Shown one piece after another: positions 52,557-63,430 of a stretch of 64,000 nt of DNA. Position 1 is the stretch's first letter. Each line of letters opens with the position of its first letter. The notes under the pieces were generated by a model, which was not told the DNA's origin, made no database searches, and saw only the letters and a list, made by a program, of their open reading frames with translations. The position numbers were made by a program, and so were the translations under genes. Source of the stretch: an uncultured Roseibium sp. (GTDB taxonomy: Bacteria > Pseudomonadota > Alphaproteobacteria > Rhizobiales > Stappiaceae); the NCBI RefSeq assembly GCF_947494555.1, contig NZ_CANLVF010000002.1, forward strand, positions 620,001-684,000. The letters run 5' to 3'.

Positions 52557-53108
52557 ATGAGTGTAAGAAGTCTTTGCCTTGCCATTCTGTCCTTCGGGGA
52601 TGCGACCGGATACGAGATCCGGAAAGAAAGCACCGATGGCCGGTTCAGCTATTTCGAGGACGCAAGCTTCGGATCGATCTACCCTGCCCTGGCACGACTT
52701 GAATCGGAAGGTCTCGTTACGGTTCGAGAAGAACCGCAAGCCGGAAAGCCAGCCCGGAAGGTGTATTCCATTACCGAGGCCGGGCGCGCGGAATTCATAA
52801 ACTATCTCTGTGAGCCACAGGCTCCAGACACATTCAAATCTCCATTCCTCCTGATCGCGCTGAACGCCGCGCAGCTGCCGCCTGATGTGATCCGGCGTGC
52901 GCTGGAGCGCCGTAAGGCACAGGTTCTTGAAGAACTGCGGCTGCTGACGGATTCAGATGAAGAATGCAATCACCCTGGCTCCAACTGGACCAGAAGCTAC
53001 GGCCTTGCATGCATGAATTGCACGTTGGCTTATCTGGAAGAACATGGCGATGCGCTTGTCAAGATCGCAGAAGATGCAGCAAAACCTGTGTCCGACGCCG
53101 CCGAGTAA
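52557..53108 (+). CDS. PadR-family transcriptional regulator
   Basis: A 183-residue protein starting SLCLAILSFGDATGYEIRKE, with the winged-helix wing FGSIYPALARLESEGLVTVREEPQAGKPARKVYSITEAGRAEF. This is the PadR signature. The C-terminal part is helical and serves dimerisation. It is 24 bp upstream of the RND adaptor gene on the same strand, so it is almost certainly in one operon with it and probably represses that operon unless an exported compound binds. Confidence 0.93.
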   Translation: MSVRSLCLAILSFGDATGYEIRKESTDGRFSYFEDASFGSIYPALARLESEGLVTVREEPQAGKPARKVYSITEAGRAEFINYLCEPQAPDTFKSPFLLIALNAAQLPPDVIRRALERRKAQVLEELRLLTDSDEECNHPGSNWTRSYGLACMNCTLAYLEEHGDALVKIAEDAAKPVSDAAE

Positions 53109-53132: not shown

Positions 53133-54236
53133 ATGAAAGTTAAATTATCCTATATCATGGCGGTGGGTCTTGCCGCTGGCATCGGTTACTGGATGTCGAG
53201 CGGAACCGTGGTTATCGGCGGGGTCGGTGACGGTGACAACGCCGTGCCGCCACCCGCGGAGCGCGTGGCTGAGGGCGGAGACGCAACATTTCGCGTCCAG
53301 GTTCTGAACCTAACGGCACAGGACAGGCAGGCAATCCTGGAGGTCCGTGGGCGAACAGAAGCCGAAGCCAAGGTCGCTGTAAGGTCCGAAACCACGGATG
53401 ACGTTGTGCGCCGCCCGGCACGGGAAGGCGCCTTTGTGTCAGCGGGCGATGTTTTGTGCGAGCTGGACGCCGGTACACGGGAAGCCAGGGTTCTGGAAGC
53501 CAAGGCCCTGTTCGCACAGGCTGAACTTGATCACACGGCGGCAACCAAGCTCGCCGACAAGGGCTTTACAGCTCAAACCCGCGCCGCTGCGACGCAGGCC
53601 GGGCTCGACGCGGCAAAAGCCCGCGTCCAGGAAGCCGAAATGGAGCTGGAACGCACGATTATTCGCTCCCCCATCGATGGCGTGATCGAGAGCCCGATGG
53701 CCGAGATCGGCGCACAGCTTGACAGTGGCGGTATTTGCGCGACGGTCGTCAATTCGGACCCAATGATCGCAATCGGTCAGGTCTCCGAGCTCAATGTCGG
53801 CCAGATTTCGCTCGGCATGCCGGCGGACGTGAAACTGGTCACCGGCGAAACGCTCAGCGGCAAGGTTCGCTATATCTCTCCGTCCGCAGAGCCGGACACA
53901 CGTACGTTCCGCGTCGAAGTGGAGCTGCCAAACCCGGACGGCAAGGCACGAGACGGCATTACCGCCGTGACCCGGCTGCCCCTGCCCGTTGAAAAGGCGC
54001 ACAAGATTTCACCTGCGATCCTGACACTCAGCGATGAAGGTGTTGTCGGCGTGCGCGCGGTCGATGATGACAACAAGACGGCATTTTATCCCGTCACCGT
54101 CCTCGGCGGTGAAAATGACGGTTTGTGGGTCGGTGGCCTGCCCGAAAAAGTGACTGTGATTGTTGTTGGCCAGGAATATGTCGGCGATGGCGAAGCCGTC
54201 GAACCGGTCTTTGAAACTGCGGAGCTCAGCGAATGA
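53133..54236 (+). CDS. RND efflux periplasmic adaptor subunit
   Basis: A 367-residue membrane-fusion protein. An N-terminal membrane span or signal anchor (LSYIMAVGLAAGIGYWMSSG) is followed by a lipoyl half (VVRRPAREGAFVSAGDVLCELD), a coiled-coil hairpin (AKALFAQAELDHTAATKL and AARVQEAEMELERT-like), the second lipoyl half (IIRSPIDGVIESPMAEIGAQL) and a beta-barrel. It overlaps the RND transporter gene by 4 bp (ATGA). With the transporter and an outer-membrane channel (not in the window) it would form a tripartite pump. Confidence 0.94.
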   Translation: MKVKLSYIMAVGLAAGIGYWMSSGTVVIGGVGDGDNAVPPPAERVAEGGDATFRVQVLNLTAQDRQAILEVRGRTEAEAKVAVRSETTDDVVRRPAREGAFVSAGDVLCELDAGTREARVLEAKALFAQAELDHTAATKLADKGFTAQTRAAATQAGLDAAKARVQEAEMELERTIIRSPIDGVIESPMAEIGAQLDSGGICATVVNSDPMIAIGQVSELNVGQISLGMPADVKLVTGETLSGKVRYISPSAEPDTRTFRVEVELPNPDGKARDGITAVTRLPLPVEKAHKISPAILTLSDEGVVGVRAVDDDNKTAFYPVTVLGGENDGLWVGGLPEKVTVIVVGQEYVGDGEAVEPVFETAELSE

Positions 54237-57200
54237 TAAACATGCTTGAAGGCGTCCTCAGACGTCCCAAGACAGTCTTTGTGCTGATGATTGCTCTGCT
54301 GGTTGCAGGCGTGTTCAGCTATATCAGCATTCCAAAGGAAGACAGTCCCGACATTGACGTCCCGGTCTTCTATGTTTCCATCGTCCAGCAGGGTATTTCG
54401 CCCGAAGATGCCGAGCGGCTTCTGGTCCGCCCGATGGAGACGGAACTTCGCGGCCTCGACGGCTTGAAGGAAATCACGGCCATCGCGTCGGAAAGCCATG
54501 CCGGGATTGTTCTGGAATTCGACATCTCGTTCGACAAGGATGAGGCGCTCGCCGATGTCCGTGACAAGGTGGATGCGGCCAAGGGCGAACTGCCTGCGGA
54601 TGCCGAAGAACCGACCATTTCGGAAACGAATTTCGCGCTTGTTCCGACAATCACGATCGCGCTTTCCGGCAGCGTGCCTGAACGCACACTTTACCAGCAT
54701 GCGCGCCGCCTGAAGGACCAGGTCGAGGCGATCGACACCGTGCGTTCGGCTGATCTGACCGGTCACCGGGAAGAACAACTCGAAGTTCTGATCGATTCTG
54801 AGAAACTGGAATCCTACGCGATCACCCAGCAAGAACTTCTGACTTCGCTCTCGAACAACAACCAGCTTGTCCCTGCGGGTTTCATCGATGGCGGTCAGGG
54901 GCGTTTCAACGTCAAGGTTCCCGGCCTTGTCGAGACGGCCCTTGATGTTTACTCCCTGCCAATCAAGCAGGCTGGCGAGGGCGTTGTAACGCTTGCCGAC
55001 GTGGCTGAAATCCGGCGCACGTTCAAGGACGCTGATTCCTATACACGCGTGAACGGCAGCCCTGCCATCGCGCTGAATGTCACCAAGCGGATCGGCACGA
55101 ACATCATCGAGAACAACATTGCCATCCGCGCTGTTGTCGACGAAGCGACGAAAGACTGGCCCGAGACGATCCAGGTCGATTACATGATCGACATGTCGTC
55201 AAATATCTTCGAGGTGCTCGGCTCGCTGCAATCCTCGATCCTGACGGCAATCTTCCTCGTGATGATCCTGGTTCTGGCCGCCCTTGGACTGAGGTCTGCG
55301 CTGCTGGTCGGACTTGCGATCCCAACCTCCTTCATGGTCGGCTTCCTAATCCTGTCAGGCCTTGGCTATACCGTGAACATCATGGTCATGTTCGGTCTTG
55401 TGCTGACGGTGGGTATGCTCGTCGACGGCGCGATTGTCATGGTCGAGTATGCTGACCGTAAGGTAAGCGAAGGCATGGAAGACCGTGAAGCCTATATCCG
55501 GGCTGCGCGTCTCATGTTCTGGCCGATCGTTTCGTCAACCGCAACCACGCTCGTGGCATTCCTGCCCATGCTGCTGTGGCCGGGTGTTGCCGGCGAGTTC
55601 ATGAGCTACCTGCCGATCATGGTGATCATCGTCCTGATGGCTGCGCTGCTGACGGCGATGGTGTTCCTGCCGGTCACCGGTGGCATCTTCGCGATGGTCA
55701 CGCATTTCCTTGCGAGGAATGCGGCAGGTGTCCTGGCATTTTTGTTTGGCGTCATCGCCGCGGCAATGACACTTCTGTCCTTGCTCGTCGGCGTGGATCA
55801 TTCTGCAGGACTGGGTGCAAACTTCGGAGCATATTTCTTTGCCGCGGTGACGTCGCTGTTCGTACTTCTTGTTGCGGCGGTAGCCACCTATTACGCAATT
55901 CGTCCGTTTGTCCGCTGGTACAGAAGGCGGATTACGGCAAGAACTGAAGTTGAGAAGCAAAAGCCGGTCAAGCAGTTCCGTTCGGTGACGTTTGTCTCGC
56001 TGGCCTTCGAGATGGTGGCCGTCGGCTTTGCTGCCTACTTCGCCTATTTCCTGGCAACCAGTCGTCCTGCGGAAGTAATCGACACGATCGGCTATGCGTT
56101 CGGCTCGCTTGCAAGCCTCGGACATCCGTTTACGGTTTTCACGCACCCGATTGCGCTCGAAACCGGGTTCTTCCTCGTCGTGTTCGCGCTCAGCCTGCTG
56201 GCGATCTGGGCCGCCTACAAAGCGATCTCACCGCTCGTTCATCTCACGGAATGGGTTTTTGACGGCGTCCGCAAGAATCTCGGCTTCGGGTCCCGCAACG
56301 GCGGCAGCCACAGCGACAAGCCTGAAGAACTGAGGTTCGATACTAGCACTGTCAAGGGCTTCACGGGTCTTTACGTGCGTCACCTGAAGCTTCTTGCGGG
56401 CAACCCTGTCGGCAACATCCTGACCCTTGTGGTTGTGTTGGGGACTTGTGCTCTGATATTCACATCCTTCGCCTCAAACCCAACCGGCGTTGAGTTCTTC
56501 GTCGACGAAGAACCGGACCAGGCTGTGGTGATGGTATCGGCCAGGGGCAATATGTCCGCGGCGGAGTCGCTTGAAATCGTCAAGCAAGTCGAGGCTGAGG
56601 TTCTTCAGACTGCGGGTATCCAGAATGTCATCACCTCCGCTTATCCTCCGGGCGGCGGAAGCGGGCCGGATTTCATCGGCGGCGTTCAGGACAAGCCGGG
56701 TGATCTCATTGGGGAGATGACGCTGGAACTGGCGAAATACTGCTGCCGCCGGAATGCCTCGGAGATCTTCGCCGAGATCCGGGACAGGTCCGCGGATATC
56801 CCCGGCATCAGGGTCGAGACGCGCAAGATCGAGGGCGGTCCTCCGACAGGCAAGGACATTCAGCTTGAGGTCACGTCCACCGACTATGACACCATGGTGG
56901 ATCAGGTCGCCCGTATCCGGACACATCTGGACACGATGGAACACCTGATCGACCAGGAGGACGACCGGCCCCTGCCCGGCATTGAATGGCAGATCGACAT
57001 CGACCGTGAACAGGCAGGCCGTTACCAGGCTGGTATCGGATCGGTCGGCAACATGGTCCAGCTGGTCACAAACGGTGTTCTGATCGGCAATTACCGTCCG
57101 ACAGATTCCGAGGACGAGGTCGACATCCGGGTCCGGCTTCCAGCCGACGAGCGCACGCTCGACCGGTTCGACCAGCTACGCTTGCAGACACCGCTCGGTC

Positions 57201-58213
57201 TCGTCCCGATTGCCAACTTCATCGACCGTACTCCGGAGCCGAAAGTGTCTTCGATCACGCGGCGCGACGGCCTATATTCGATGATGCTGAAAGCGACAGT
57301 CGACAAGACGGCCGTCGATGCCGAAGGCAAGCCGTTGACGGTTGATGCCAAGGTACAGGAACTGAGTGATTGGCTCGACACCCAGACTTTCCCGGACAAT
57401 GTCTATCTTCAGTTCCGCGGTGCGGATGAAGATCAGAAGGAATCCGGTGAGTTTCTGATGCGGGCGATGATGGCGTCCCTGTTCCTGATGTTCCTGATCC
57501 TGCTCACCCAGTTCAACTCGTTCTACCAGACCTTCCTGACGCTCTCGACAGTGGTCATGTCGGTCATGGGCGTGTTGCTCGGCATGATGCTGACGGGGCA
57601 GAAGTTCTCGATCATCATGACAGGAACCGGCGTGGTGGCGCTGGCGGGTATTGTCGTCAACAACGCGATTGTTCTGATCGATACCTATAACCGGTTCCGG
57701 CATGACGGGTTCGACCCGCTCGATGCGATCCTGAAGACGTCCGGCCAGCGTATCCGTCCGATCCTCTTGACGACGGTGACGACGATCGTCGGCCTGGTGC
57801 CGATGGCAACGGCCGTCAATCTGGACTTCTTCACCCAGACGATTGCGGTTGGCGGCATCACGGCGATCTGGTGGATCCAGCTGTCGACAGCGGTGATTTC
57901 CGGTCTCGCCTTCTCCACGATCCTGACACTCATCATGATCCCGGTGATGATTGCGGTCCCGAGTACCTGGGCACGGACATTCGGTGTGATCTGGAACATG
58001 ATCACAAATGTCTGGGGCATGTTCCTTGCCCTCTTCGCAACGCGCCGCATTGCTGGCGTTGCCGAAGAGAACGAGGCAGACGCGGATCAGGACGTCGAGT
58101 GGACCGATCCAGAGCTCGAAAAAGAGCGTCCTGCAGCCAAAGTGGTGTCGATGCCGAAACCGGCACCGCCGAAGGTGCCACCGCAGGAACAGCCGCCGCT
58201 CGCGGCTGAGTAA
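54233..58213 (+). CDS. RND efflux transporter with large central insertion
   Basis: A 1326-residue inner-membrane pump subunit of the AcrB/HAE type. The N-terminal half has the first span (TVFVLMIALLVAGVFSYIS), the porter domain, spans 2-6 and the TM4 acid GMLVDGAIVMVEYADR; the second Asp of AcrB is Gly here. The C-terminal half repeats this, with TM10 GIVVNNAIVLIDTYNR. Typical members have about 1020-1060 residues. About 240 residues between spans 6 and 7 (residues ~480-720), against about 45 in AcrB, hold roughly four more hydrophobic segments. The C terminus carries a Pro/Glu-rich cytoplasmic tail (~45 residues). A strong terminator follows. Confidence 0.95.
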   Translation: MINMLEGVLRRPKTVFVLMIALLVAGVFSYISIPKEDSPDIDVPVFYVSIVQQGISPEDAERLLVRPMETELRGLDGLKEITAIASESHAGIVLEFDISFDKDEALADVRDKVDAAKGELPADAEEPTISETNFALVPTITIALSGSVPERTLYQHARRLKDQVEAIDTVRSADLTGHREEQLEVLIDSEKLESYAITQQELLTSLSNNNQLVPAGFIDGGQGRFNVKVPGLVETALDVYSLPIKQAGEGVVTLADVAEIRRTFKDADSYTRVNGSPAIALNVTKRIGTNIIENNIAIRAVVDEATKDWPETIQVDYMIDMSSNIFEVLGSLQSSILTAIFLVMILVLAALGLRSALLVGLAIPTSFMVGFLILSGLGYTVNIMVMFGLVLTVGMLVDGAIVMVEYADRKVSEGMEDREAYIRAARLMFWPIVSSTATTLVAFLPMLLWPGVAGEFMSYLPIMVIIVLMAALLTAMVFLPVTGGIFAMVTHFLARNAAGVLAFLFGVIAAAMTLLSLLVGVDHSAGLGANFGAYFFAAVTSLFVLLVAAVATYYAIRPFVRWYRRRITARTEVEKQKPVKQFRSVTFVSLAFEMVAVGFAAYFAYFLATSRPAEVIDTIGYAFGSLASLGHPFTVFTHPIALETGFFLVVFALSLLAIWAAYKAISPLVHLTEWVFDGVRKNLGFGSRNGGSHSDKPEELRFDTSTVKGFTGLYVRHLKLLAGNPVGNILTLVVVLGTCALIFTSFASNPTGVEFFVDEEPDQAVVMVSARGNMSAAESLEIVKQVEAEVLQTAGIQNVITSAYPPGGGSGPDFIGGVQDKPGDLIGEMTLELAKYCCRRNASEIFAEIRDRSADIPGIRVETRKIEGGPPTGKDIQLEVTSTDYDTMVDQVARIRTHLDTMEHLIDQEDDRPLPGIEWQIDIDREQAGRYQAGIGSVGNMVQLVTNGVLIGNYRPTDSEDEVDIRVRLPADERTLDRFDQLRLQTPLGLVPIANFIDRTPEPKVSSITRRDGLYSMMLKATVDKTAVDAEGKPLTVDAKVQELSDWLDTQTFPDNVYLQFRGADEDQKESGEFLMRAMMASLFLMFLILLTQFNSFYQTFLTLSTVVMSVMGVLLGMMLTGQKFSIIMTGTGVVALAGIVVNNAIVLIDTYNRFRHDGFDPLDAILKTSGQRIRPILLTTVTTIVGLVPMATAVNLDFFTQTIAVGGITAIWWIQLSTAVISGLAFSTILTLIMIPVMIAVPSTWARTFGVIWNMITNVWGMFLALFATRRIAGVAEENEADADQDVEWTDPELEKERPAAKVVSMPKPAPPKVPPQEQPPLAAE

Positions 58214-58356: not shown

Positions 58357-59265
58357 ATGGATCACCGCACCTTCATTGCCGGACTGTCCGCATCTGAGCG
58401 CGCCAGGCTGACCGAAAAGTCGGACGCAAAAGGGCTCGTCATGCTCGTCCTGCATTTCGGATTGATCGCGTTGTTCGGTGCGCTGATCGCCCTTGGCGTC
58501 CCGGGTTGGCAGTTTTTGATGATGGCGCAGGGGATCCTGATCATCTTCCTGTTCACATTGCTCCACGAAACAGTTCACGGAACCGCGTTCCGGTCACCCT
58601 GGCTGAACGAGTGGGTTGCCAGGGTGTGCGGCTTCCTGATCGCCGTTCCCGCCGACTGGTTCCGGTACTTTCATTTTGCCCATCACCGGCATACACAGGA
58701 CCCGGAAAAGGACCCCGAACTCGCGACCAGGAAACCGGAGACCGTCTGGCAATACATCGCGCATGTGAGCGGATTGCCGACGTGGAAAGGTGAATTCCAA
58801 ACACTCTTCAATAACGCGATTGCAGACAACCGGGACGCTTTCGTACCCAAGAACGGGCGACGGAAAGTCCGTCGCGAAGCTATTGTCACGCTGGCGCTTT
58901 ACGCGCTGCTGGCCGCTGTCTCTATCGCTTTCGGGTCGGGCGCGCTCCTCTATGTCTGGATCCTGCCCTGCCTTTTGGGTCAGCCGTTCCTGCGGCTATA
59001 TCTCCTCGCCGAGCATGGCCGCTGCCCGTTTGTTGCAAATATGCTGGAAAACAGCCGGACGACCTACACAAATACCCTTGTTCGCAAGCTCGCCTGGAAT
59101 ATGCCCTACCACGCCGAACACCACAGTTATCCAACGGTGCCGTTCCACAAGCTGCCCGACTTGCATAGGCTGACGAAAGCGCATCTCGGTGCGACGTCGG
59201 ACGGTTATTCCGAGTTTCATGCCGACTATCTGTCAGATCTGAAAGGTGCTCCAGGTTCGCATTGA
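58357..59265 (+). CDS. Fatty acid desaturase family membrane protein
   Basis: A 302-residue protein with three histidine boxes of membrane di-iron desaturases: HETVH at residues 70-74, HFAHHRH at 106-112 and HAEHH at 252-256. Hydrophobic spans at about residues 27-70, 88-100 and 175-215 flank them. Such enzymes insert double bonds or hydroxyls into lipids using O2. The exact substrate (fatty acyl, sphingoid or carotenoid) is not clear. It comes after the pump operon terminator and may be separately expressed; GAGGG stands 4 nt before ATG 58357. Confidence 0.92.
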   Translation: MDHRTFIAGLSASERARLTEKSDAKGLVMLVLHFGLIALFGALIALGVPGWQFLMMAQGILIIFLFTLLHETVHGTAFRSPWLNEWVARVCGFLIAVPADWFRYFHFAHHRHTQDPEKDPELATRKPETVWQYIAHVSGLPTWKGEFQTLFNNAIADNRDAFVPKNGRRKVRREAIVTLALYALLAAVSIAFGSGALLYVWILPCLLGQPFLRLYLLAEHGRCPFVANMLENSRTTYTNTLVRKLAWNMPYHAEHHSYPTVPFHKLPDLHRLTKAHLGATSDGYSEFHADYLSDLKGAPGSH

Positions 59266-59431: not shown

Positions 59432-60382
59432 ATGACCGATGTTTCCCCTTCTCTCGTTCAGGATGTTCGCGCCGCGTCGCGCCAGCTTGTCCGCGAATTC
59501 GGCTTTCTCGACAAGACGATTGCCGGAACGGATCTCTCCGGGTCCGGTGTACACGCGATTCTGGAAATAGGCTTAAACCCTGGCGTGACGGCAAAAGAGC
59601 TTGCGGTCCGGCTGAAACTGGAAAAATCGACGATAAGCCGCCTGCTCAAATCGCTCGAAGTTCGGGGAGAAATCATTCAGACCAGATCGGAGCGCGACGG
59701 CAGGGTCTTCGGCCTTAGCCTGACGCACGCCGGTTGGAAAACCTACGGCAAGATCGATACCTACGGCGACGATCAGGCACGTGGGGCGCTTTCCAGAATA
59801 CGGAACGGGTCCGCGCGTTCGGTTGCAGATGCTCTGACGACTTACGCCGATGCACTTTCGGACACATCGTCAGACGCGTCCGCAAATCATGATCGCCACG
59901 AGATCGTCGAAGGGTACCAGACGGGCATGATCGGCGACATTGCCGCGCTCCATGCCCGTACGCACGGTGCCATCATCGGCATGGGGCCGATTTTTGAAAG
60001 CGTTGTCTCCAAAGCGATGGCAGAGTTCATGCCCCGGATCGGTAACAGTACAAACAACAGTTGGAGCATTGTCGAGAAGGGTGAAGTCATCGGATCGATA
60101 ACAATCGACGGCGAAGATCTGGACGGAAACGTCGCGCATCTTCGCTGGTTCATCCTGTCGGAAAAACTGCGCGGTCTCGGGCTCGGCAGGACGCTGCTTT
60201 CCAGGGCAATTACCCATTGCGACACCCAGGGCTTCGATGAAATCCACCTTTGGACACTGAAAGGGCTGGATGCGGCAAGGTCTCTTTATGAAAGCAGTGG
60301 ATTTGAACTTGCAGACGAATATGTCGGCGATCAGTGGGGGAAGACTGTCACCGAGCAGATGTTCATACGCAAAAGGAGTTGA
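59432..60382 (+). CDS. MarR-GNAT fusion protein
   Basis: A 316-residue protein in two parts. Residues ~1-145 form a MarR winged helix (GVHAILEIGLNPGVTAKELAVRLKLEKSTISRLLKSLEVRGEIIQTRSERDGRVFGLSLTHAGW). Residues ~160-316 form a GNAT acetyltransferase (WSIVEKGEVIGSITIDG, HLRWFILSEKLRGLGLGRTLLSRAI, YESSGFELADEY) with a RGLGLGRTL acetyl-CoA loop. Such MarR-GNAT fusions are known in bacteria, but most are uncharacterised. They may couple transcription to acetylation of a small molecule or the DNA-binding part itself. A palindrome and a tandem repeat precede the gene. Confidence 0.9.
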   Translation: MTDVSPSLVQDVRAASRQLVREFGFLDKTIAGTDLSGSGVHAILEIGLNPGVTAKELAVRLKLEKSTISRLLKSLEVRGEIIQTRSERDGRVFGLSLTHAGWKTYGKIDTYGDDQARGALSRIRNGSARSVADALTTYADALSDTSSDASANHDRHEIVEGYQTGMIGDIAALHARTHGAIIGMGPIFESVVSKAMAEFMPRIGNSTNNSWSIVEKGEVIGSITIDGEDLDGNVAHLRWFILSEKLRGLGLGRTLLSRAITHCDTQGFDEIHLWTLKGLDAARSLYESSGFELADEYVGDQWGKTVTEQMFIRKRS

Positions 60383-61841: not shown

Positions 61842-62714
61842 TCAGCCGCCATGGTCCTTGTCACGATCGGCAATGTTATCGAGATCCGTGTCACACTCAT
61901 CGCCATCATCGTCCAGCGTCAGGTTTTCATCCGCCAAGACCAGTTTCCGATGCGCCCGCCAGGACACGGGAATAGCCAACAGATAAAGCACTGCAGCACC
62001 TGCCATCATGCGGAACGGATAGCTCACGGTCAGTGCAACGATCAGCACGGCGAGCACAATCAGCGGCAACACAAAATCCCGGCGTACTCGGGTACCAAGT
62101 GTTTTGCCGGAATAGGTCGGCAGGCGGCTGATCACCAGGAACGAGATCGCAATTGTATAGGCCGCAACGAATGCCGAGTCGGCAAACCAGTGCGGAAAAA
62201 GCCCAAGAAATTCAAGATAGAGCGGCAGCAGAACCGTCAATGCTCCTGCCGGCGCCGGCACGCCGGTGAAAAAGCGTGATGTCCAGGCCGGTTTATCGGG
62301 ATCGTCAAGGGCAACGTTGAACCGTGCCAGACGCAGGGCCATGGAAATGGCGAAAATAAGCGCTGCGATCCAGCCCAGGTTCCCGGCGTCCTTGAGCAGC
62401 CAAAGATAGAGCATAAGAGCCGGAACAACACCGAAGTTGACGAAATCCGAGAGTGAATCCAGCTCCGCTCCGAAACGGGACGTCCCCTTCATCAGGCGTG
62501 CGACGCGACCGTCCAATCCATCGAGCACGGCGGCGAGCAGTACCGCGCCAACCGCAAATTCCCACCTGCCCTCGAATGCCATGCGCACAGCGGTCAGACC
62601 GGAGCACAGCGCAAGCAGCGTGACCAGGTTGGGCACGATAAGGCGCATCGGAACACGCCGGAACCTGGGTGCCGGCTTGCCTGTCTTTGTACCGCTTTGC
62701 TCAACTTTGGACAC
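61842..62714 (-). CDS. pssA: CDP-diacylglycerol-serine O-phosphatidyltransferase
   Basis: A 290-residue membrane protein with about eight hydrophobic segments. The CDP-alcohol phosphotransferase motif D-G-x2-A-R-x8-G-x3-D-x3-D is at residues 68-90 (DGRVARLM ... GAELDSLSD). It makes phosphatidylserine from CDP-diacylglycerol and serine. The start is GTG 62714 with GAGG 6 nt upstream. It follows psd by 8 bp and shares its pathway: PssA makes phosphatidylserine and Psd decarboxylates it. The C terminus is hydrophilic and acidic. Confidence 0.96.
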   Translation of the reverse strand: MSKVEQSGTKTGKPAPRFRRVPMRLIVPNLVTLLALCSGLTAVRMAFEGRWEFAVGAVLLAAVLDGLDGRVARLMKGTSRFGAELDSLSDFVNFGVVPALMLYLWLLKDAGNLGWIAALIFAISMALRLARFNVALDDPDKPAWTSRFFTGVPAPAGALTVLLPLYLEFLGLFPHWFADSAFVAAYTIAISFLVISRLPTYSGKTLGTRVRRDFVLPLIVLAVLIVALTVSYPFRMMAGAAVLYLLAIPVSWRAHRKLVLADENLTLDDDGDECDTDLDNIADRDKDHGG

Positions 62715-62722
62715 GTTCGACC

Positions 62723-63427
62723 TCAGCTCACACGCGTCAGGACTTGCGAGGCGCCTTCCGGCTGACCGAGATCCGCCAGAACCGTTTCACCCGCGATCAT
62801 GGTCTGTCCAAGGGCCACCTTGGGCTGCGTGCCAACCGGGAAATAAACATCGAGACGGGACCCGAAACGGATCAGGCCGAAGCGGTCTCCGGCAAGGATC
62901 GTTTCGCCTTCACGGACAAAACAGACGATCCTGCGGGCGACCAAACCGGCAATCTGCACCACGCCGATGCGGTTTTCGCCCATTTCGATCACCAATCCAT
63001 TGCGCTCGTTGTCATCGCTTGCCTTGTCGAGTTCGGCGTTCAGGAATTTACCGGCACGATAGGCCACACGCACAATGCGGCCGCCGACCGGGGCACGATT
63101 GACGTGGCAGTTGAACACATTCATGAAAATCGAAACCCGCATCAGCGGTTCATTGCCAAGTTCAAGCTCGGCAGGCGGGCGGGTAAGGCCAACCTGGCTC
63201 ACAACCCCGTCCGCAGGAGAGATCACAAGTCCCTCGCCAACAGGTGTCACGCGTTTCGGGTCGCGGAAGAAGTAGCAAATCCACCCGGTGAAGAAGAGCC
63301 CTATCCAGAACAGCGGATCGACAAACCAGCCGACAACAAACGTTGCGACCAGCGAGATCGCAATAAATGGCCAACCCTCCCGATGGATCGGGACCATGGC
63401 TTTGGTGACGGAATCGACAATCGACAT
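62723..63427 (-). CDS. psd: Phosphatidylserine decarboxylase proenzyme
   Basis: A 234-residue protein of the short PSD type. Two spans lie near the N terminus ([37 protein letters not shown]). The cleavage site is Gly189-Ser190 in [15 protein letters not shown], where self-cleavage creates the pyruvoyl group. [22 protein letters not shown] and [15 protein letters not shown] are family motifs. It makes phosphatidylethanolamine. ATG 63427 has GGAAAG 5 nt upstream. It is the first gene of psd-pssA. Confidence 0.96.
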
Positions 63428-63430
63428 CAA

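Follow-up and report, generated by a model that had tools for sequence, protein, structure and literature searches.

The pump studied here is encoded in a window of 64,000 nucleotides, the whole stretch of DNA that was analysed, where its gene follows those for a PadR-type regulator and a periplasmic adaptor (Table). The adaptor scores 133 bits against TIGR01730 (cut-off 94.9). A pssA-like gene, which psd adjoins in the window, is oriented towards the pump; a convergent pssA lies within 4.3 kb of the pump in 58 of the 70 named loci with at least 2 kb of sequence to the right, and within 1 kb in 39 of them. Directly after the pump is a fatty acid desaturase gene (58357-59265), with a match in only four of the 79 named loci (L039, L040, L042 and L048). 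The first part of a further reading frame (59432-60382) has a weak MarR-type match and its second part a weak GNAT acetyltransferase match, neither over cut-off.

Table. Features of the RND pump locus, in window positions.
Feature	Position	Strand	Basis
PadR-type regulator	52557..53108	+	Profile match; in 74/79 named loci
Periplasmic adaptor (RND_mfp); stop overlaps pump start	53133..54236	+	TIGR01730; in 76/79 named loci
RND permease, 1326 aa; 12 canonical and 4 extra predicted spans	54233..58213	+	Profile matches, family alignment, span scoring, fold match
TM4 D398-G399, at the position of AcrB D407-D408	55424..55429	+	Invariance in 75 rows; alignment to solved RND pumps
Hairpin 1, residues 487-577, putative old insertion and mosaic cassette; predicted helices 497-519, 531-575	55691..55963	+	Spans, profiles, AF2
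Hairpin 2, residues 578-690, putative later insertion; predicted helices 587-610, 613-627 (short), 639-682 (long)	55964..56302	+	Alignment, AF2
E593, in first span of hairpin 2	56009..56011	+	Invariant in 14/14 rows; also in divergent L026
TM10 N1143-N1144; N1143 at the position of AcrB K940	57659..57664	+	Alignment to solved pumps; invariance
pssA-like gene, conserved convergent neighbour	61842..62714	-	TIGR00473, 104.4 bits, just below cut-off of 107
psd, phosphatidylserine decarboxylase	62723..63430	-	NF003677, 377.9 bits, cut-off 315

The pump reading frame is open, and 18 of the 87 genomes in the window's family, counting the window's own genome, match it from end to end. Two stretches match the Pfam ACR_tran profile (PF00873; 509 bits against a cut-off of 28), the better covering residues 7-486 and the other lying in the C-terminal half; family homology restarts at about residue 702. 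With PVTGG at residues 480-484 and NPVGN starting at 724, the two AcrB-like halves described in the initial annotation are both in place. That the reading frame is an artefact of assembly or fusion has a negligible probability: no point in its support was found, and the 17 other genomes that match the pump end to end do so without stops. Among the best 80 of 96 relatives the closest named ones are from Roseibium and Labrenzia (Stappiaceae), which suggests that the window belongs to a genome of Roseibium type, and the top PDB sequence match is 6vej, which we take to be TriC.

The RND fold is evident in an AF2 model of residues 44-1243, whose best match is an AcrB structure (Z 42.6, rmsd 5.5, 933 residues); in the 50 structure rows shown, Z is 39.5-42.6, rmsd 4.0-5.7, and 887-949 residues are aligned. 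The pump reaches the cut-off of no NCBIfam subfamily, scoring 263 bits against TIGR00915 (cut-off 940), 433 bits against NF033617 (cut-off 1250) and 235 bits against TIGR00914 (cut-off 701), the profile of the CusA/CzcA heavy-metal RND pumps. The TM4 of CusA/CzcA pumps has an Asp followed by a small residue, as does the Asp-Gly of the window pump. The resemblance to the AcrB-type tripartite pumps (HAE-1) lies in the two-repeat core and fold, the adjoining adaptor gene and an arginine in TM11, whereas the differences concern the 12 spans and short connector helix (I-alpha) of AcrB, against 16 predicted spans with hairpins at the same place, and the Gly and Asn found at the positions of D408 and K940.

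D398-G399, N1143 and N1144 are invariant in all 75 aligned family rows. Alignment to solved RND pumps places N1143-N1144 at the positions of K940-N941 of AcrB, and also shows that the pump keeps the TM11 arginine, presumably R971 of AcrB. The canonical relay of AcrB comprises D407, D408, K940 and R971 (PMC8277102, in excerpt); the pump thus retains D407 and the TM11 arginine, with D408 replaced by G399 and K940 by N1143. The Asp-Gly in place of Asp-Asp that had been noticed in TM4 is therefore real and, being invariant, is a trait of the family. As the AcrB relay is partly missing and no NCBIfam subfamily cut-off is reached, we class the pump, on its sequence, with the RND permeases but outside HAE-1, in a subfamily as yet without a name.

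AcrB has 12 transmembrane helices per protomer, with one short horizontal helix joining the repeats (PMC8277102, in excerpt). The window pump departs from this short TM6-TM7 connector by prediction, having 245 residues between the TM6 and TM7 anchors (478 and 722), against 51 in compact relatives, and four spans in this loop (500-518, 533-551, 585-603 and 640-658; KD19 1.8-2.55). This agrees with the earlier description of an insertion of about 240 residues with at least four hydrophobic segments, and the four segments quoted there all score as spans. The loops of 92 family rows fall into three classes: compact, with 51-61 residues and no span (9/9 rows); two-span, with 99-165 residues and exactly two spans in 66 of 68 rows (L115 has one, L093 three); and four-span, with 244-265 residues and four or five spans (15/15). 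Because five two-span loops stand twice in the 92 rows, the counts on the 87 distinct loops are 9/9, 61/63 and 15/15. Rows identical over residues 101-400 were reduced to one, so that L015, L018 and L019 dropped out; the span, loop-class, FastTree and topology rows thus cover 14 of the 17 four-span genes, and the DNA identity comparisons and the core and hairpin DNA trees all 17. At a threshold of 1.75 exactly four spans are scored in all 14 rows of the window's clade; at 1.4, eight of the 15 four-span rows show four hydrophobic stretches and seven show five, the fifth coinciding in most of these seven with the modelled short helix of hairpin 2.

Charge distribution points to the orientation of these spans. 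The connector of AcrB is cytoplasmic, the end of TM6 and the start of TM7 both lying in the cytoplasm (PMC8277102, in excerpt). In the 66 two-span rows Lys and Arg together have a density of 0.176 per residue in the outer flanks versus 0.029 between the paired spans, and the bias runs the right way in 65 rows; in the 14 four-span rows the stretch that links the hairpins carries 7-11 Lys or Arg, and those linking paired spans 0-1. This bias fits cytoplasmic ends of the insertion, and with both ends cytoplasmic the second half of the pump would keep its orientation. The proposal that an even number of spans preserves the topology of the second half accordingly stands for hairpin 1, from the charge bias and the exact counts of the two-span rows; it extends less surely to hairpin 2, which may contain a re-entrant helix since a fifth hydrophobic stretch appears in seven of 15 rows at the lax threshold. 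In the AF2 model of residues 44-1243, which leaves out TM1, the mean pLDDT is 75.5 and hairpin 2 is weak (about 46-76). A model of the loop only has a mean pLDDT of 80.9, with span helices at 78-97 by ten-residue block (hairpin 1 helices 82-97, hairpin 2 helices 78-95); its pTM of 0.51, with the weak hairpin 2 of the larger model, makes the arrangement of the helices uncertain.

The pump occurs in 85 of the 87 family genomes: 18 matched end to end, 62 measured from two pieces and five without a loop measurement. Sixty-one of the 62 two-piece genomes are in the two-span range and one is compact. An even sample of 101 genomes from the order gave 60 with a pump match, and the 51 that were measured divide into 36 with compact loops, 14 with loops of two-span length and one, the window, with a loop of four-span length. 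Among 15 genomes of the phylum only two proteins have PF00873 split at the connector in one frame, both from the window's genome. The other 14 hold about 94 full-length PF00873 matches (hand count), in which, by reading, the protein is at most about 52 residues longer than the profile span it matches. On these sequences this ceiling would rule out inserts of the size seen in the window (+194) and in common two-span pumps (+65 to +80), while leaving room for the smallest two-span insert (+41). One genome of this survey (G127) has two separate half-length PF00873 matches, on different contigs.

The initial annotation asked whether the insertion is conserved as a block. It comprises instead two modules of different age, of which hairpin 1 appears to recombine apart from hairpin 2. 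The closest relatives have hairpin 1 and lack the roughly 115 residues of hairpin 2, which is inserted after the cytoplasmic tail of hairpin 1 and ahead of an FD..KVKG motif that precedes TM7. Hairpin 1 profiles compare at 94-95% between Stappiaceae and two Rhizobiaceae groups, 97% between the first Rhizobiaceae group and a Nitratireductor group, 80% between the two Rhizobiaceae groups, and only 34% between Stappiaceae and the Nitratireductor group. Since these profiles match one another across separate lineages, hairpin 1 is probably largely one old insertion across Hyphomicrobiales, and the suggestion of a subfamily trait is borne out for this hairpin, which is common to two-span relatives across that order; hairpin 2 turned up in the window's genus, in 17 genomes, and as a divergent copy in one other genome (L026 of G031). 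Two pumps with 61-residue loops, L076 and L079, are nested among two-span rows on starred FastTree branches, and as their loops keep both ends of the insertion they point to secondary loss.

The divergent hairpin of L026 sits at the same point in the gene and at the same locus as that of the window's clade and resembles it (scores 43-80, versus 24-41 for their hairpin 1); with the window's hairpin 2 as query it was not recovered at E≤1. The core of L026 groups with two-span species, and a single origin of the four-span state, with L026 and the window's clade held together, was rejected on the core (p-AU 1.6e-4). Its hairpin 2 may reflect either transfer or ancestral presence with losses. Derivation of hairpin 2 by duplication of hairpin 1 found no support: hhalign gave 0.2-1.7%, with one control hairpin scoring as high, and comparisons of each pump's own two hairpins gave Z from -1.4 to 3.0, with only L010 reaching 3.

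That close homologues might all share the insertion and have a described structure, as the initial annotation allowed, does not hold. The loop alone matched no PDB sequence at E≤1 and nothing over cut-off in Pfam (best E 0.015), and the loop model matched no PDB fold at E≤0.001 (best E 1.4), a missing fold match being weak evidence. No relative of the hairpin module was found in viral contigs, and no match among plasmid records covers 80% of the pump. Silent hairpin cassettes were considered and rejected: the window's hairpin 1 occurs in 35 of the 87 family genomes (E≤0.001), once in each and within the pump, and matches to hairpin 2 outside the pump appear in these 87 genomes only at E>0.02.

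The separate behaviour of hairpin 1 is clearest among close relatives. Mean amino acid identity in the four-span clade (14 rows) is 95.5% in the N-terminal half, 90.6% in the C-terminal half and 45% in hairpin 1. At the DNA level, among all 17 four-span genomes, L013 and L015 are 96.8% identical in the core, 87.7% in hairpin 2 and 48.8% in hairpin 1, and within residues 470-599 their amino acid differences begin at 493 and end at 576. The window and L010 compared with L011 and L012 likewise give 88% for the core and 47% for hairpin 1. The hairpin 2 tree agrees with that of the core, and the hairpin 1 tree conflicts with it. In the core DNA tree the rows carrying one type of hairpin 1, called alpha (the window, L010, L013 and L021), stand in three places, and joining them is rejected (p-AU 1e-5); in the hairpin 1 DNA tree the four group as a single clade (SH-aLRT 99.5), and constraints that keep L013 with L015 (p 0.0055) or the window and L010 with L011 and L012 (p 0.029) are rejected, the AU p-values for this group being post hoc because it was named from the hairpin 1 matrix. 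The synonymous distance between L013 and L015 is 1.66 in hairpin 1 and 0.12-0.13 in the core. Such values are not expected from one mutation rate, and the simplest reading of the sequences is that in some relatives recombination exchanged the entire hairpin 1. A smaller second dip in identity (0.69) between L013 and L015, at residues ~661-690 near the end of hairpin 2, is possibly another recombination tract.

Eight pairs were examined for selection. In the same-type pairs window/L010, L011/L012 and L018/L019, dN/dS is 0.09-0.15 in the hairpins versus 0.00-0.02 in the core, indicating that the hairpins are constrained, though loosely, and are not neutral. For hairpin 2 it is 0.21 in L013/L015 and, on very few changes, 0.22 in L017/L018; the C-terminal tail of L013/L015 has a dN/dS of 1.03. 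In 25 two-span pairs with core identities of 0.85-0.995 no cassette swap was seen, the lowest loop identity being 0.75; here, loops mostly diverge faster than cores.

The same genome encodes a second RND pump, L149 (G000:C5:298368-301778; 1137 residues), with two spans in its TM6-TM7 connector. The nearest of the eight other pumps fetched from this genome, L008 (35-39%), has no extra span there. In 36 genomes of the order the loops of the L149 family range from 46 to 216 residues with 0 to 4 predicted spans. Its hairpins show no resemblance to those of the window's family (at most 10.1%), from which it appears that the RND connector accepted hairpins at least twice.

From the predicted architecture, the three size classes, the topology signal and the mosaicism, all read from sequence and structure prediction, we tentatively propose, at somewhat less than even odds, that this RND pump exports drugs or amphiphiles and that its connector gained transmembrane hairpins stepwise, these serving as a peripheral, built-in accessory comparable to AcrZ that tunes the coupling of the two repeats. 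The hairpins would replace the short connector, at the place of the cytoplasmic helix I-alpha of AcrB, taking the pump from 12 to 14 to 16 spans. As they are hydrophobic, evolve fast and can be exchanged while the core stays the same, they would most probably sit at the edge of each protomer that faces the lipid. As I-alpha joins the repeats and moves rigidly with the second of them (TMR2; PMC8277102, in excerpt), the added helices could alter the rocking or coupling of the repeats, or the lipid surroundings of the substrate entries. Lying outside the conserved core they could evolve quickly, and hairpin 1 could be replaced whole by homologous recombination. AcrZ offers a parallel as an additional helix associated with an RND transmembrane domain, and together with cardiolipin it has been proposed as an allosteric modulator of AcrB (PMC7267776, in excerpt); it is, however, encoded by a separate gene, and the likeness to the hairpins proposed here is one of role.

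Other readings were weighed against this accessory role. The hairpins may be largely non-adaptive decorations of a TM6-TM7 loop that tolerates in-frame membrane hairpins with little harm. We consider this rather unlikely, for although the hairpins evolve fast, were secondarily lost in L076 and L079 and have unrelated counterparts in the same loop of the L149 family, they are under purifying selection in three close pairs and hairpin 1 has been retained across several lineages. Somewhat less likely again is binding of a specific partner, such as a small membrane protein, lipid enzyme, toxin or phage factor, with diversifying selection on hairpin 1 as the cause of whole-cassette exchange. Its replacement in L013/L015 over residues 493-576, separately from hairpin 2 and the core, would be consistent with this, as would the conservation seen in hairpin 2 near K580, T586-F587 and E593; but dN/dS within one hairpin 1 type is 0.11-0.15 in three pairs, so that no positive selection is seen, the loops within the hairpins are short and weakly charged, and no partner gene was identified.

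A path for lipid entry or handling, in a pump acting on membrane lipids or lipid-like substrates, seems distinctly improbable. The hydrophobic hairpin helices and the nearby pssA and psd genes would suit it, yet convergent genes need not be co-functional, and compact relatives with no extra span also lie beside pssA (for example L070, L079, L081 and L099). The neighbour therefore does not track the hairpins, and does not explain them.

Among the records listed from the open-access literature, in which subscription journals are mostly absent, titles and abstract openings yielded no RND pump with TM6-TM7 hairpins. In 14-span MFS exporters an extra pair of spans lies between the two halves. These exporters, among them EmrB, a 14-span member of the 12-span MFS transporter class (PMC8277102, in excerpt), and QacA, described as a 14-span MFS exporter, nevertheless belong to a different superfamily, whereas the window's family holds 0, 2 and 4 extra spans within one ortholog family. 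A family with 12-, 14- and 16-span members and a nearly unchanged core makes the role of the repeat connector directly askable, and natural replacement of a whole hairpin by recombination, if true, would mean that RND helices can be exchanged without touching the core. More speculatively, and with a probability well below even, the RND TM6-TM7 connector might be an evolutionary docking site for hairpins, acquired separately in at least two families, with one hairpin an allelic cassette shuffled between species to tune substrate range or escape a pump-targeting agent.

In 36 genomes the window's family and the L149 family both carry hairpins in 13 and neither does in 18, with four having them only in the L149 family and one only in the window's. 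The Fisher p of 0.002 ignores phylogeny, and on the tree no more than three independent pairs are well supported, so no correlated gain in the two families is claimed. Relatives of L149 in two of the genomes, G098 and G167, have four predicted spans in the connector.
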